Positions 2,891-61,268 of a DNA stretch of 64,000 nt are shown in pieces. The stretch is from NCBI RefSeq assembly GCF_007994225.1, contig NZ_VLLL01000010.1:1-64000 (forward strand), written 5' to 3'. Both the position numbers and the translations under genes were made by a program. The stretch is from Stackebrandtia albiflava (GTDB lineage: Bacteria > Actinomycetota > Actinomycetes > Mycobacteriales > Micromonosporaceae). Position 1 is the stretch's first letter; each line of letters begins with the position of its first letter. Under the pieces are notes generated by a model. The model saw only the letters and a list, made by a program, of their open reading frames with translations, ran no database searches and was not told the origin of the DNA.

Positions 2891-4179
2891 CGGGGACCTC
2901 CTGAGACGGTCTCCGCCAACGCGGCGCGGTGGGTGAACCCCTGCGGCCCGTTGGCGAGGCTGCGCCAGACGTGGTCGAGCCGGTCACCGTGCCGGATCGG
3001 CACCACCCGCCACCCGGCCCGCAGCAGGTTCAGCATGCTGTCGTAGAACGCCTTGTCGGCGTCGGCGCGCGCGGCCTCCGGCAGGCTCATCCACGTGCTG
3101 GAGTCGATGAGTACCGCGACGCAGGTGGCGCCGCCGGCCCGGACGGCACCGAGCGCGGTGGCCTCCTCGGGGGTCATCATGCCGAAGACGCCCACGATCA
3201 ATCCACTGTGGTCGCCGCGCCGGATCTGCTCCACGAGCGTCTCCATCTGGCCGTGCCGGCGGCTGCGTACCCCGGCGAGATGGTCGAGCATGACCCCCGA
3301 CGAGTCGAGATCCGGTGACAGATCGACGGACTCGGACACCATCCGCATCTTGTAGCCCGACAACCGCAGGTGGTCGGTGATGCTGGCGACCGCCGCCACG
3401 GCCCACTCGAACGACGACGCCGGACCGTCACCCCGGAACCCCGCGGCCCGCAGGTCCATGACCACCGTGGCGCGTGAGTCCCACGGTTGCTCCTCCCGCC
3501 TGACCATGAGTTCGCCGGTGCGGGCGGTGGACTTCCAGTGGACCCGGCGCAGGTCGTCGCCGTGGCGGTACTCGCGGGTGGCGGCATCGTCCTCACCGTG
3601 TACCGCCACGGCCCGGGAACGGCTGTCACCGGCCCCGGCGAACTCGCCGGGCAACCGGATCGACGGCAGCGGCGTGATCGTCGGAATCACGGTGAGCCGG
3701 TCCACGCCCGGATAGGTGTGGGTCAACTCGATCAGCCCGAACGGATCGGTGATCCGGATGACGAGCGGTCCGACCTCGTATCGTCCCCGCTGTTCGGCCC
3801 GCACGGTGTAGGCGACCGCGCTCCCACCCCCGCCGGGCAGGCGTTCCAGCACCAGGCGGGGACGTTCGCCCAGCGTGTAGGGCAGCCGGTCCTCCAGCAT
3901 CATCGTGCCGGTGGAGACCCGCGACTGGTTGCGCAGCCGCAGCGTCACCCTGGCCTCCTGGCCCATCTCGACCCGCGACGGGTCGAGGACCCTGGCGGCG
4001 TTGATCTGGTATCTGGTGCGGGCCATGACGGCGGCGGCCAGCAGCGGCAGGAGCCCCACCAGCAACGCCACCCGCAGCATGTCCTTCTCACCGATGACGA
4101 AGGACACCAGCACCAGCGCCAGGCCGATGGATATCAGCGACTTGCCTCGGAGCGTGAGGCCGCGCAATGCTTCGGCCAC
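2887..4179 (-). CDS. DUF58 domain protein (MoxR-operon partner)
   Basis: This 430-residue protein has two N-terminal hydrophobic stretches (about residues 15-55, LISIGLALVLVSFVIG and LRVALLVGLLPLLAAAVMA). An immunoglobulin-like part follows, then the DUF58 signature with REYRHGDDLRRVHWKSTARTGEL near residue 200. The rest resembles a von Willebrand factor A fold, with VVMDLRA at the position of the metal-binding strand. It begins 7 bases after the MoxR gene and overlaps the transglutaminase gene by 4 bases, so the three form one operon. The biochemical role is not established; in the family it is a partner of the MoxR ATPase. Confidence 0.88.
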   Translation of the reverse strand: MAEALRGLTLRGKSLISIGLALVLVSFVIGEKDMLRVALLVGLLPLLAAAVMARTRYQINAARVLDPSRVEMGQEARVTLRLRNQSRVSTGTMMLEDRLPYTLGERPRLVLERLPGGGGSAVAYTVRAEQRGRYEVGPLVIRITDPFGLIELTHTYPGVDRLTVIPTITPLPSIRLPGEFAGAGDSRSRAVAVHGEDDAATREYRHGDDLRRVHWKSTARTGELMVRREEQPWDSRATVVMDLRAAGFRGDGPASSFEWAVAAVASITDHLRLSGYKMRMVSESVDLSPDLDSSGVMLDHLAGVRSRRHGQMETLVEQIRRGDHSGLIVGVFGMMTPEEATALGAVRAGGATCVAVLIDSSTWMSLPEAARADADKAFYDSMLNLLRAGWRVVPIRHGDRLDHVWRSLANGPQGFTHRAALAETVSGGPR

Positions 4180-56095: not shown

Positions 56096-56203
56096 CCCCG
56101 CCGGCCCGACCGCCGGCGGGGCAGGTCACCGCCGGTCACTCTGATGCGAAAGTGTGGCTGTTCCAGCGTGGCGGCCCCGCCACCGGCGCATTACCATCAG
56201 GCA

Positions 56204-57160
56204 ATGGCCTCCGACCCCGCACTCCATGTCGTCAGTGACGTGCACGGGCACTACGACGCGCTCGTGGCGGCGCTGGGCGACGCCGGCCTCGTCGACGGCT
56301 CCGGTCACTGGAGCGGCGGCAACGCCCGGCTGTGGTTCCTGGGCGACCTGTTCGACCGGGGCACCGACGGTACCGCGGTCGTCGACCTGATCATGCGGCT
56401 CGCCGACGAGGCCGAGGGCGACGGCGGGCTGGTCGACAGCCTGCTCGGCAACCACGAGGTCCTCATGCTGGGGGCGCGCCGGTTCGGCGACGACGACTTC
56501 GCCGACGAGGACGGCAACTCCCGCAACTTCATGATGTGGTGGCATCTCAACGGAGGTCAGGACGACGACGTCGCCCGCCTGACCGACAAGCAGATCAACT
56601 GGCTCCAGAACCGCAAGGTCATGACCTACGCCGCCGACCACCTGCTCGTGCACACCGACACGGTGGAGTACGCCGCGTACGGCCGCAGCATCACGGCGGT
56701 CAATCGCGCCGTCCGCAAGATCGTCAAGTCAGCCGACCACGAGAAGTGGTGGATGCTGTTCCGGAGGCTGACGATCCGTCACCGCTACGAGGCCGAGGAC
56801 GGTGCCGTGCAGGCCGCCGCCATGCTCGACTGCTTCGGCGGCAGCCAGATCGTCCACGGCCACAGCACCATCCCCGACCGGCTGGGGATCCCCGGCGACC
56901 AGGTCGTGGGACCCCGCCGGTACTGCGAGGCCCTGGCGCTGTGCGTCGACGGCGGCATATACCAGGGCGGCCCCTGCCTGGTGGTGTCGCTCCCGGTCGA
57001 TCCCGCGCTGCTGCAACCCGACCCGTCACCGACGTCGCCCGACACCGCCGCGGAGCCGGAAGGGGAGACCCGCCGGTCGAACTTCGAGGGTGAGGGCGGG
57101 GCCGACACCGACGCCGTCACCGCGGCGGCGTTGGAGGTGGCGACCTCCGACGCCGATTGA
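56204..57160 (+). CDS. Calcineurin-like metallophosphoesterase
   Basis: This 318-residue protein has the four metallophosphatase blocks: VVSDVHGHYDALVAAL (residues 9-24), WFLGDLFDRGTDG, SLLGNHEVLML and IVHGHSTI. This arrangement matches the PPP-type serine/threonine phosphatase or bis-tetraphosphatase branch. The tail after residue 285 is acidic and disordered. A -10-like TACCAT lies 6 bases before the ATG (leaderless). Confidence 0.92.
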   Translation: MASDPALHVVSDVHGHYDALVAALGDAGLVDGSGHWSGGNARLWFLGDLFDRGTDGTAVVDLIMRLADEAEGDGGLVDSLLGNHEVLMLGARRFGDDDFADEDGNSRNFMMWWHLNGGQDDDVARLTDKQINWLQNRKVMTYAADHLLVHTDTVEYAAYGRSITAVNRAVRKIVKSADHEKWWMLFRRLTIRHRYEAEDGAVQAAAMLDCFGGSQIVHGHSTIPDRLGIPGDQVVGPRRYCEALALCVDGGIYQGGPCLVVSLPVDPALLQPDPSPTSPDTAAEPEGETRRSNFEGEGGADTDAVTAAALEVATSDAD

Positions 57161-57163
57161 GAT

Positions 57164-57187
57164 GTCGCCCCGCCGTGGCGGGGCGAC
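57164..57187 (+). terminator. Terminator after the metallophosphoesterase gene
   Basis: A 10-bp perfect stem (57164-57173 with 57178-57187, loop CGTG) begins 3 bases after the stop codon. Confidence 0.8.
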
Positions 57188-57432
57188 GTGTCCGTTCAGA
57201 GGCCGTCTTCGACCTTGCTGTCCTGCTGTGCGTCGCCCGATCGGCGCCTCGCGGCGTTGTCGCAGGCAGCGCCGCTGAAAGACCGGTGCATACAACACCG
57301 GTATGTACGGACCCTCCAGAGCATTGCGTCCTCCGCTTGCGAACGCACTCGACCAGACACCGCTCGCGACGAACGAGGACCAGAGACAGCCTCTGCGACA
57401 CCCGCCCGGTGTCGCCGCGCGACGTTAGTCTG
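57188..57432. other. Gap between the terminator and the hairpin array
   Basis: No supported gene. A minus-strand frame 57196-57450 ends in SKVEDGL but has no ribosome site or recognisable domain. TAGTCT at 57426-57431 could be a -10 box for the array, but no -35 is visible. Confidence 0.35.
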
Positions 57433-57691
57433 GACGGGGGAAGCCCCCACCGGCTTCCCCCGTCACTCTCATCCGGTGACGGATCGGGGAGACCCCCACC
57501 GGTCTCCCCGATCACCCCACCCGGAGCACCCCTCCCGGTCCCACCGACCGGAGCGATGCTCCATCGGTCGGAGAAGGCGGTCCCACCTGCCTTCCCGACC
57601 GTCCCACCCGGAGAGTCCCGCGCGGCCCCCACCGGCCGCCGGACCCTCCCCGGCGGATCGGGGGAGTCCCCACCGGCTGCCCCGGTCCGCC
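57433..57691. ncRNA. Array of six hairpins with invariant CCCACC apical loop
   Basis: CCCACC lies at the tip of six consecutive stems, at 57446, 57495, 57540, 57582, 57628 and 57669 (spacing 41-49). Stem A pairs 57433-57445 with 57452-57464 (13 perfect bp). Stem B pairs 57482-57494 with 57501-57513 (13 perfect bp). Stem C pairs 57535-57540 with 57546-57551, plus an outer 57523-57528 with 57557-57562. Stem D pairs 57566-57571 and 57573-57578 with 57589-57600. Stem E pairs 57622-57627 with 57634-57639, with an imperfect outer part. Stem F pairs 57652-57663 with 57680-57691, including one G-T pair. Stem sequences differ while pairing is kept. Two more CCCACC copies (57516, 57603) lie in linkers and continue as CGGAG. 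Strand and transcription are unknown; read from the other strand the loops are GGTGGG. Confidence 0.65.
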
Positions 57692-57718
57692 AGTCGAGCG
57701 AAGTCCTCGCGCGCGATG

Positions 57719-58027
57719 TCAGTAGAACCGCGCGGTGTAGATCCTCCCGTTCCGCACCCACGCCAGGTGCAACGCGGCGAACATGTCACCGAGTATGTCC
57801 TCATCGGACAGGCCGTACGTCTTGGCGACGCAGCTGCCCCGGTAGTGCCACAACAGGCCGGCACGAACCTCGTCGGCGCCGGCGGTGTGCCTTCCACACG
57901 GGAGGCCACACCGGTAGACCGGGCCGTCCGGAGCCGTGTCGATCGACATCGTCTGGTGGCAGGAGGAACTCCACAACTTGTCCGCGGTGGCCAAGTCCAG
58001 CAATGCCGGGGAGTGTCGTTCGACCAT
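57719..58027 (-). CDS. Hypothetical protein
   Basis: This 102-residue protein, MVERHSPALLDLATADKLWSSSC at the start and DEDILGDMFAALHLAWVRNGRIYTARFY at the end, has five Cys residues but no recognised domain. Starts at 58042 or 58150 are possible; 58027 gives the most protein-like N-terminus. On the minus strand its 3' side runs straight into the CCCACC hairpin array, which could be its 3' untranslated region. Confidence 0.5.
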   Translation of the reverse strand: MVERHSPALLDLATADKLWSSSCHQTMSIDTAPDGPVYRCGLPCGRHTAGADEVRAGLLWHYRGSCVAKTYGLSDEDILGDMFAALHLAWVRNGRIYTARFY

Positions 58028-58487
58028 GGCACCAAATCCCATCTGGTCAGGCGCGGAACCCGTCGGCCGGAGCCGACCGGTCGCTGAGAAACGGCGAAAC
58101 GGTGAATCTGTCCGGGTGCCGCGCCGCGCCGAAGAGCCGTGGGATCGCATCAGGACGATGCGGAACCGGCCGGCTCAGTGGACGAACGCCGCCGCACGAA
58201 TCGGTATATGCGGATCGTAGTCAACTGTTCCTTCACTTGTCGTGCATTGTCACACCCATCATACTATGCATCGACGCCGGGCAGATGCACGTGCATGGGC
58301 GCGTGCAGGCGCACAATCGCGATATGCCACTCTAATGGGTGACCAGAGATGGGACGTCGCCCGGCGCCACCAGGTCACCGCGGCCGTGAGCCTGCCCTTC
58401 CCGCCCGGAAGGGCCACGGCGGCAACGACTCCGGCGCGACCGGGCGACGTGGCTGGTCAACCGCATCTCAATTGGAAGGAACCACCG
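58028..58487. other. Gap upstream of the DUF397 gene with promoter-like and palindromic DNA
   Basis: An AT-rich island (58200-58275) contains TTGTCG, 17 bases, CATACT on the plus strand as a candidate promoter for the DUF397 gene. A perfect 12-bp palindrome ATGCACGTGCAT lies at 58285-58296, just downstream of it, and could be an operator. No gene seen. Confidence 0.4.
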
Positions 58488-58730
58488 ATGAGCGAGTTCT
58501 ACAACGGCATCCCGGCGGGCGACCTGCCGTCCACCGTGGTCTGGCAGAAGAGCGGCCGCAGCAACCCCAGCGGCAACTGCGTCGAGATGACCGCGCTGCC
58601 CACCGAAGGCACCGTCGCGGTCCGCAACTCCCGCGACCCGCACGGGCCCGCCCTCGTCTACACCGTCGACGAGATCACCGCGTTCGTCCAGGGCGCCAAG
58701 GACGGCGACTTCGACAACCTGATCCGCTGA
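58488..58730 (+). CDS. DUF397 protein
   Basis: This 80-residue protein begins MSEFYNGIPAGDLPSTVVWQKSGRSNPSGNCVEM, with the DUF397 motifs W-x-K-S, G-N-C-V-E, VAVRNSRDPHGPAL and a final ITAFVQGAKDGDFDN. AAGGA lies 7 bases upstream of the ATG. It is followed by an XRE/Scr1-type gene in the same direction, the reverse order of the pair at 41-42 kb. Confidence 0.9.
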   Translation: MSEFYNGIPAGDLPSTVVWQKSGRSNPSGNCVEMTALPTEGTVAVRNSRDPHGPALVYTVDEITAFVQGAKDGDFDNLIR

Positions 58731-58967
58731 CCCGACCCGGCCGGCCGGTCAGGTGGGACGGTCGGCCGGGCCACCGCCCGGGTTCCGAGGCGCCCGCGAC
58801 GCCTCGGAATCCGGGCGCAACCCTCCGCAGGCTCCCGTCGGTCCGATGAAGCACGGTTCGGTTACCTTTGGTCTGAAACGTCAGACGTCCCGGATAGCCT
58901 GTCGGCGTGACATGCTTGATCGAGGAAGTACACATTCAGGGATAGCCGAAACTCCGGAGGTCGGGAA

Positions 58968-59852
58968 GTGACAACGCCTTCTCCAGGGAGCGCCACTCCC
59001 GGAGGGCCGACCGCGCTGCGGATGTTGCTGGGCGCCCACCTCCGCAGGCTCCGCGAGGAGAAGGGCATCACCCGGGGAGAGGCCGGTTGGGAGATCCGGT
59101 CGTCCGAATCAAAGATCAGCCGCCTGGAACTGGGCCGGGTCAGCTTCAAGGTCCGCGACGTCGAGGACCTGCTCACCCTCTACGGCGTCGAGGAACCCGC
59201 CGAACGCTTCCGCTGGATCGAACTGGCAAAAGAGGCCAACAACCCCGGCTGGTGGCACCGCTTCGGCGACGTCCTGCCCAACTGGTTCCAGTCCTATCTC
59301 GGCCTGGAGGCCACCGCCACACTCATCCGCACGTACGAGTTCCAGTTCATCCCCGGACTCCTCCAGACCAAGGACTACGCGCGCGGCGTCGTCCTACTCG
59401 GCCACGGCTACGCCGGACGCGCCGAGATCGATCACCGGGTGGAACTGCGCGAATCCCGGCAGAAGATCCTCACCCGCGTGGATCCGCCCCGGTTCTGGTG
59501 TGTCGTCGACGAAGCCGCCCTGCGCCGCCCGATCGGGGGGCGCGCCGTCATGCGCGCCCAACTCCAGTCGCTCATCGAGCACTGCTCACTGCCCAACGTC
59601 CGCATCCAGGTCATCCCGTTCTCGGCGGGCGGCCACTCGGCGGCGGGCGGCGCGTACACGATCCTGCGGTTCGCCGACCCGGACCTGCCGGACATCGTGT
59701 ACCTCGAACAGCTCACCAGCGCGCTCTACCTCGACAAGCCCGACGACGTCGACGAGTACACCGCCTCGATGGAGTCGCTGTGCGTGCAGGCGACCGAGCC
59801 GGACCAGACGCCGGCCATCCTGCGCGGCATCATCGACGAGCTGTACAGCTGA
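58968..59852 (+). CDS. XRE-family regulator of the Scr1/DUF5753 type
   Basis: This 294-residue protein has helix-turn-helix LRRLREEKGITRGEAGWEIRSSESKISRLELGR (about residues 25-57) and the C-terminal domain with YEFQFIPGLLQTKDYARGVV, then FRFADPDLP-type sequence LRFADPDLPDIVYLEQLTSALYL. GTG 58968 follows a GGGAAG-type site. It presumably works with the DUF397 protein immediately upstream, and lies tail-to-tail with a PF04672 methyltransferase. Confidence 0.88.
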   Translation: MTTPSPGSATPGGPTALRMLLGAHLRRLREEKGITRGEAGWEIRSSESKISRLELGRVSFKVRDVEDLLTLYGVEEPAERFRWIELAKEANNPGWWHRFGDVLPNWFQSYLGLEATATLIRTYEFQFIPGLLQTKDYARGVVLLGHGYAGRAEIDHRVELRESRQKILTRVDPPRFWCVVDEAALRRPIGGRAVMRAQLQSLIEHCSLPNVRIQVIPFSAGGHSAAGGAYTILRFADPDLPDIVYLEQLTSALYLDKPDDVDEYTASMESLCVQATEPDQTPAILRGIIDELYS

Positions 59853-59960
59853 CCCGATCCCGCATCCCGCGGCCGTGCCCGCGCACCGGCCACACCACCG
59901 GATCCCGGAGCACACGAAGGGTGGGTACGCGGCCCGACCGCGCACCCACCCCCACTCGAA

Positions 59961-60806
59961 TCACGCCTTGTAGGCGATGCCCGCCATCATGATCCGCTGG
60001 TACGGTTCCAGTTCGGTCAACTCCGGCACCCTCCGGTCCGGCTCCTCGGGGAACCAGCGCGACACGAAGTCCAGGCCCGGGGGGATGAGCGGTAGACCGA
60101 GGAAGTGCTGCTCGATACGTTCCGGCGTGCGCACCCACCCGTTGCCGAGGCTCTCCAGGCCGGCGCGTTCGATCGCCTTCTGGTGCGGCTCGCCGGTGTC
60201 ACCGAAGTCGGTGATGAACAGGTAGCTGCCGGGCGCGGTGGCGTCCATCAGGGTCCGGACCCACTCGTCCGGCTGCTCGTCGTCGTGGAAGTGCATGTGG
60301 AGTCCGACGACCATCAACGCCATCGGGCGGTCGAAGTCGAGCACCCGCCGCACCTCGTCGTCGGCCAGGATCTCCTCCGGCCGCCGCAGGTCGGCCGTGA
60401 TCACCGTCGTGGATTCGTTGGTGGCCAACAGGGCCCGGCCGTGGGCCAAGACGATGGGGTCGTTGTCGACGTACACGACCTTGGCGTCCGGGTTGATCTC
60501 CTGGGCGGCCTCATGGGTGTTCTTCACCGTCGGCAGGCCACTGCCGATGTCGAGGAACTGGTCTATACCGGCCTTCCGGGCCAGGTACTGCACGCCGCGG
60601 ACCAGGCCGGCCCGGTTGTCGAGCGCGACCTTCCCGGCCTCGGGCACGTGCTTGAGGTAGATGTCGGCGCCGACCCGGTCGGCCGCGAAGTTGTCCTTGC
60701 CCCCGAGCAAGGCGTCGTACACCCGCGCGATCGTCGGTTGCGAGATGTCGAAGTCCGGTTTGTAGCCCGGGTCGCCTACTGGCGTCGTCCCTTCGGTTGC
60801 GGTCAT
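59961..60806 (-). CDS. SAM-dependent methyltransferase of the PF04672 family
   Basis: This 281-residue protein has DISQPTIARVYDALLGGKDNFAADR at the N-terminus. The SAM site is FLDIGSGLPTVKNTHEAAQ (about residues 78-96) with the acidic ribose-binding VVYVDNDPIVLAHGRALL. This actinobacterial family is frequently found beside XRE/DUF397 genes; its substrate is unknown. AGAGGG lies 6 bases before the ATG at 60806. Confidence 0.9.
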   Translation of the reverse strand: MTATEGTTPVGDPGYKPDFDISQPTIARVYDALLGGKDNFAADRVGADIYLKHVPEAGKVALDNRAGLVRGVQYLARKAGIDQFLDIGSGLPTVKNTHEAAQEINPDAKVVYVDNDPIVLAHGRALLATNESTTVITADLRRPEEILADDEVRRVLDFDRPMALMVVGLHMHFHDDEQPDEWVRTLMDATAPGSYLFITDFGDTGEPHQKAIERAGLESLGNGWVRTPERIEQHFLGLPLIPPGLDFVSRWFPEEPDRRVPELTELEPYQRIMMAGIAYKA

Positions 60807-61268
60807 GGCGCACCCTCTTCTAGTAGGGAAGTCGTGACCGACATGGTACGTCACCCGGAGACGTTGCGCCCGACCGGATGCACGGTATTCGGAACGTGCA
60901 TGCGCACGGCCGCAACCGATGCCGGTCACTCGCACGAGTGGTCGTCCCCAGGCACAACGAGCCGTCCGGCGAATGGTTATGGGCGCACACGATCGACGAC
61001 ACCGGTTCACCGGCGTGCTGTCCTCTATGGTGTGTTCACGGTCGCGGTTCCGTCGCCGCCGCGCGCGACGGTTCACATCGGCACAGGTCGATGCGGACGG
61101 TCCTCGGTGGTGGACAGCCGTGAGCCGGGCGGCGCCACTCCGGTGCGTACCTCCTCGCCGAGGAAACCGTCGCGGATGTGACCCCGCGCGGCGGGTGCCG
61201 TCGCCGTCGATTCGGGTCCGACCACCCGTGTCGACCTCGCCCCTGTCGATCCCGCCTTTCGGGGGCCG
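60807..61268. other. Gap upstream of the cysteine-rich peptide genes
   Basis: No supported gene on either strand. Long frames here are Arg/Pro-rich without ribosome sites. TACTAG-like sequence near 60820-60826 may be the -10 of the methyltransferase gene. Confidence 0.35.

Follow-up and report, generated by a model that had tools for sequence, protein, structure and literature searches.

The question raised by this locus is whether a series of hairpins with C-rich tips belongs to an RNA molecule and, if so, to what kind of RNA, or whether it is a palindromic repeat of the DNA. The hairpins lie in a window of 64,000 nucleotides from Stackebrandtia albiflava (contig NZ_VLLL01000010.1, positions 1 to 64,000), which is the whole stretch analysed here. 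The initial annotation of positions 57433-57691 described six hairpins presenting CCCACC at 41-49 base spacing, two of them with 13 perfect pairs, and read them as a structured RNA of no known class with several identical binding tips, perhaps a decoy of a protein or of G-rich ribosome-binding sites.

Layout of the array

The array and its surroundings comprise the following features, given with their coordinates in the window.

56144..57160, + strand: metallophosphoesterase gene, the upstream neighbour of the array on the same strand
57198..57395, no strand assigned: MITE-like interspersed repeat of about 200 bases with inverted ends (AGAGGCYGTCTTCG-like), separate from the array
57433..57464, + strand: hairpin 1, 13 perfect pairs, hexaloop CCCACC
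57482..57513, + strand: hairpin 2, 13 perfect pairs, hexaloop CCCACC, of all copies the nearest to the Glycomyces hairpin
57514..57522, + strand: linker with the seventh CCCACC (57516-57521), counterpart of the second CCCACC that follows the Glycomyces hairpin, with a predicted unpaired probability of only 0.47
57523..57562, + strand: hairpin 3, CCGGTC/GACCGG enclosing CCACC, outer helix weaker
57565..57601, + strand: hairpin 4, 15 pairs and one bulge, CCCACC at 57582 in the tip
57602..57609, + strand: linker with the eighth CCCACC (57603-57608)
57610..57649, + strand: hairpin 5, GCGGCC/GGCCGC enclosing CCCACC, plus outer pairs
57652..57691, + strand: hairpin 6, 16 pairs and one mismatch, hexaloop CCCACC, at the site of the relatives' last hairpin
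57719..58150, - strand: small gene of 143 aa, convergent with the array and a syntenic landmark

The + strand of 57433-57691 contains eight copies of CCCACC and none of GGTGGG. Six copies belong to the hairpins, starting at 57446, 57495, 57540, 57582, 57628 and 57669 (spacing 49, 45, 42, 46 and 41), and two further copies, at 57516 and 57603, which the initial annotation lacks, lie outside them in linkers. When 57425-57700 was shuffled 2000 times with dinucleotides preserved, the motif count had a mean of 1.0 and a maximum of 6. With a simple stem finder, five hairpins of at least 7 pairs were observed (mean 0.11 and maximum 2 in 2000 dinucleotide shuffles) and three of at least 13 pairs (mean 0.001, maximum 1), while the fold of the + strand reached z = -10.0, with none of 200 shuffles equally good. 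The motif positions and these controls altogether bear out the six tipped hairpins and their spacing as first described, and the two stems of 13 perfect pairs are hairpins 1 and 2. In the minimum-energy fold, hairpins 1, 2, 5 and 6 present the exact CCCACC hexaloop; in hairpins 3 and 4 the stem extends over one C of the motif. Mean unpaired probabilities of the motif on the + strand ranged from 0.77 to 1.0 across the six hairpins and were 0.47 and 0.98 in the linkers. Positions 57582-57629 are a diverged duplicate of 57495-57542 (75% identity), so the array has apparently expanded through the duplication of a hairpin-linker-hairpin unit.

The protein of the convergent small gene had no Pfam or NCBIfam match; its C-terminus is conserved by eye as LAW[VI]RxGxIYTARF, together with a few shared Cys. 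Of the 44 genera sampled from the family, 2 have it; a distant relative is encoded in the window's own genome (G000:C5:145466-145858), and a query with the protein against the genome contig collection returned 68 pattern stretches, none of which was confirmed. Beyond this gene, the window encodes a DUF397 protein, a DUF5753 helix-turn-helix regulator and an S-adenosyl methyltransferase (58488-61076).

Relatives, synteny and covariation

Two genomes of the same genus (G002 and G003) carry four CCCACC hairpins and five CCCACC copies each, flanked by orthologues of the same two genes, with the metallophosphoesterase upstream; their stems are unlike those of the window in sequence, yet they are paired. 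A further genome of the genus (G004) has one hairpin and one CCCACC copy, its second motif being UCCACC. In G004 the small gene is absent, the DUF397, regulator and methyltransferase genes adjoin the element, and no metallophosphoesterase match was found within 8 kb around it. In G001 the small gene is present and the array absent. Stackebrandtia and Glycomyces are placed by NCBI in one family, and in the Glycomyces-type genus (g11) a single hairpin followed by a second CCCACC was found in all 22 loci, with a 32-base hairpin core identical across the 22. The small gene adjoins the element in every one of these loci, as it does in the window's own genome, G002 and G003. DUF397 comes next in 17 of the 22, the remaining five stretches stopping short of the gene, and the DUF397, DUF5753 regulator and S-adenosyl methyltransferase genes adjoin the element in Stackebrandtia-like and Glycomyces loci wherever the stretch extends far enough. 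An upstream motif, GTGTGTCAGCACTGTTCGC, occurs in 15 of the 22 Glycomyces loci (stretches L079-L095, L106-L110 and L163-L186). Eight of the 22 Glycomyces-type stretches also hold a tRNA-Arg(CCT) gene.

The small protein, found in 26 of 300 family genomes, had first led to the Glycomyces-type loci, a route that would bias the association with the small gene. A search blind to genes used a model (R1) made from the sequences of the window, 13 Glycomyces loci, G002 and G003. In the 300 family genomes it matched 101 at E 0.1 and only 26 at 49 bits or more (22 of genus g11 and four of genus g1), and these 26 were the small-protein set plus G004 and minus G001; 16 of the sequences recovered had served to build the model. 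G004, from outside the build set, scored 58.5 bits, and within the array hairpin 2, a copy that is itself part of the model, scored 49.4 bits and hairpin 6 scored 31.1 bits. Among the weaker family matches, none of the ten loci examined had a CCCACC loop. A 41.8-bit match in G029 (L137, about 4044-4096, - strand) consists of a GCCACC-loop hairpin followed by a weak CCCACC hairpin, and is possibly a distant relative or a chance match. In 298 genomes of the order, 18 matched at E 0.001, and one of the eight loci examined outside the family can form a CCCACC loop (L159, 24.9 bits), without a second copy. The pattern GRRAGRCCCCCACCGGYCTYYC, searched in a genome contig collection that may leave out records near the window's genome, was found in 27 stretches, namely 21 from Glycomyces, one from an actinomycete MAG and five from unrelated organisms; in these five, no second CCCACC occurs within 70 bases downstream.

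Covariation was measured on hairpins aligned in a gapless frame of 13 pairs. Since the rows were centred on CCCACC, the constant loop is partly a product of construction, which does not apply to the stems. As the Glycomyces cores are identical, two loci stand for all 22, and a 12-hairpin set leaves out five hairpins whose stems misfit the frame (window hairpins 3, 4 and 5, and hairpin 3 of G002 and of G003). In this set, 95.5% of 156 cells were paired, against a shuffled mean of 83.2% and at most 54.5% in slid versions, and both sides change in eight of the 13 pairs (21 cells vs 6.0); further pair types, one of the five measures, were not above shuffles (366 of 500 as high). With all 17 hairpins, 80.1% of cells were paired vs 64.5%, both sides change in 12 of the 13 pairs, and each of the five measures was reached by at most 2 of 500 shuffles. 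Hairpins of one array are related by duplication, so these counts are not independent events. According to the initial annotation, loss of the pairing in homologous loci, together with the lack of any transcript, would have spoken for a decaying DNA repeat; the pairing is retained in syntenic relatives, whose differing, still paired stems support a structured RNA with several identical tips.

Comparison with known RNAs and repeats

No Rfam family reached its cut-off over the element, whether in the window, where none did so at any position, or among the ten loci scanned from relatives, in line with the initial impression that the array belongs to no known class. At a permissive threshold, the rows over the array were BjrC80 (20.4 bits, cut-off 80), Scr4115 (20.7, cut-off 58) and mir-343 (15.3, cut-off 70), and in seven relatives' loci the only family at its cut-off was a neighbouring tRNA in L083. 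Among the papers listed in searches of open-licence literature on small RNAs of Stackebrandtia, noncoding RNAs of Glycomyces and CCCACC actinobacterial small RNAs, none dealt with this element.

The nearest likeness is with 6C and B11, actinobacterial RNAs in which two or more strong hairpins expose C-rich tips. The 6C RNA has two hairpins whose loops carry runs of about six C. In Mycobacterium abscessus, B11 represses a target at its G-rich ribosome-binding site, and either of its two C-rich loops is enough for this (PMC10470900); another report ascribes the effect to a single C-rich loop (PMC12395582). In contrast to these RNAs, the loop here is CCCACC and not a C-run, a further CCCACC lies in the linker, the location is another one, and four to six hairpins are found in three of the five genomes of the genus. 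The 6C model (RF01066, cut-off 47 bits) gave no row at E up to 10 in window positions 56900-58500 or in seven relatives' loci, whereas the true 6C RNA of this genome, with C-run loops, lies on another contig (L112 566-642, G000:C2; 49 bits).

ANTAR-target RNAs also present tandem hairpins with constant hexaloops in Actinobacteria, with A at position 1 and G at position 4 of the loop (PMC8164766). The array shares the tandem arrangement and the constant hexaloops; however, positions 1 and 4 are C and A in CCCACC, and G and G in the GGUGGG of the opposite strand, and this candidate was rejected. Csr-type decoy RNAs carry repeated GGA in their loops. The array resembles CsrB and RsmZ in its many hairpins, in its one repeated tip motif and in the variable copy number, but the tip motif is not GGA: the loops are CCCACC on the + strand and GGUGGG on the - strand, with no repeated GGA. 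A dispersed palindromic repeat (REP/MITE) was rejected as well, since a query of 57396-57718 against its own genome matched itself alone at E<0.001 (next match at E 0.0015; 40 of the 111 first-look candidates scored).

Strand, candidate function and rival readings

The element is probably read on the + strand. We infer this, and its status as an independent gene, from a few relatives, the strand mainly from G004, in which a promoter-like GTGACT-18-TAGAAT lies on the + strand about 35 bases before the stem, a 14-pair hairpin (-22.9 kcal/mol) with seven consecutive U at its end follows past the linker, and the upstream ORF points away from the element. On the strand that carries the tips, G002 offers only a promoter-like site and G003 only a terminator-like last hairpin (CTTTTT); the window scan gave neither kind of site for the array. 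Opposite to the tips, the four scanned regions had only two weak terminator-like sites, both in L034 and at least 137 bases outside the array. G004 also has a - strand promoter-like site that would read through the element, and the predicted fold energy is lower for the - strand (-195.2 vs -176.6 on the + strand). Tip openness is about equal on both strands, and wobble pairs and A-C mismatches are both present by eye; neither these features nor the fold energy settle the strand.

The reading that we favour, with somewhat less than even confidence, is that of an uncatalogued + strand small RNA gene of Glycomyces and Stackebrandtia-like relatives, probably acting as an antisense regulator in the manner of 6C and B11, an analogy from which both the mechanism and the kind of target are drawn. 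Its constant part would be a very stable CCCACC-hexaloop hairpin, followed in most relatives by a second CCCACC, to which the window lineage would have added hairpins, so that the RNA would bear up to eight copies of the motif. Each C-rich tip would initiate base pairing to a GGUGGG-like sequence close to a ribosome-binding site, which would block translation of the target, and more tips would serve more sites per RNA molecule. CCCACC differs from the anti-Shine-Dalgarno CCUCC. In a small count, GGTGGG preceded none of the 40 predicted gene starts in the window, where five permutations of the hexamer came to no more than 0 or 1 as well. Folding predicted an open second CCCACC in two of four Glycomyces loci (0.91 and 0.99; the others 0.20 and 0.34) and an open second motif, UCCACC, in G004 (0.79), but a mostly paired one in G002 (0.17) and G003 (0.21), so that the motifs can be counted with more certainty than the usable tips.

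Two other readings, each held to be rather unlikely, give the hairpins a role of a different kind. In a protein decoy, the identical tips would bind an RNA-binding protein, and their number would set the titration, as CsrB does for CsrA. Such a role would suit many identical tips borne on unlike stems, and CCCACC copies that vary from eight in the window to five in G002 and G003, two in Glycomyces and one in G004, and it would give a reason for a 32-base core kept identical in all 22 Glycomyces loci, beyond the needs of plain loop pairing; it sits poorly with the one or two copies of Glycomyces and G004, and the loops do not contain GGA, the CsrA motif. Terminators are a frequent identity of strong hairpins between convergent genes. 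The array could accordingly be a 3' end element of the small gene, read on the - strand, with terminator or stability hairpins bearing GGUGGG loops, and the small gene does end beside it in the 22 Glycomyces-type loci, the window's genome, G002 and G003; the - strand promoter-like site of G004 and the lower - strand fold energy point the same way. However, the element occurs without the small gene in G004 and the gene without the element in G001, and inspection by eye of the 12 bases beyond the other flank of the first hairpin showed no T-run in any of 26 loci (window, G002, G003, G004 and 22 Glycomyces-type loci). A terminator would moreover need neither a constant loop, nor a second copy, nor six hairpins.

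It is improbable that the array is a DNA-level repeat or a decaying palindrome array with no RNA role. Local duplication did build part of it, and regularity is lower in hairpins 3-5 than in 1, 2 and 6, but there is no second copy in the genome at E<0.001, and between species the stems are still paired with changes on both sides. Least probable, to a degree that makes it very doubtful, is a diverged member of the 6C family itself: C-rich loops on strong hairpins in Actinobacteria would fit, against which stand the missing 6C row at E up to 10 and the separate 49-bit 6C of the same genome.

Returning to the antisense regulator, the identical core of the 22 Glycomyces loci exceeds what loop pairing needs, and this reading leaves it unexplained. 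More tentatively, and with the odds clearly against it, the element could be a lineage-specific regulatory RNA in which evolution has adjusted the number of tips (one or two in G004 and Glycomyces, five and eight in this genus), serving as a multivalent regulator or sponge; if so, the series of tip numbers would be a natural set for measuring valency against the strength of RNA regulation. To our knowledge, understanding extends to only a few small RNAs of high-GC Actinobacteria, and no general Hfq-like chaperone is known for most of these bacteria. The C-rich loops on strong hairpins of 6C and B11 are one model of how actinobacterial small RNAs find their targets. If the antisense reading holds, a second RNA of the 6C plan, with another tip, would exist beside 6C in one genome, which would suggest that the plan arose more than once, and the variation of tip number among species would allow valency and tip specificity to be tested.

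The copy in the window may itself be silent. The regions upstream of the array in the window, G002 and G003 are unlike one another by eye, and the MITE-like repeat, whose end lies 37 bases from hairpin 1, may have displaced the promoter. This repeat has nine other copies listed at 76-90% identity in its own genome (15 matches in all), and further copies at about 70% identity occur in G003.
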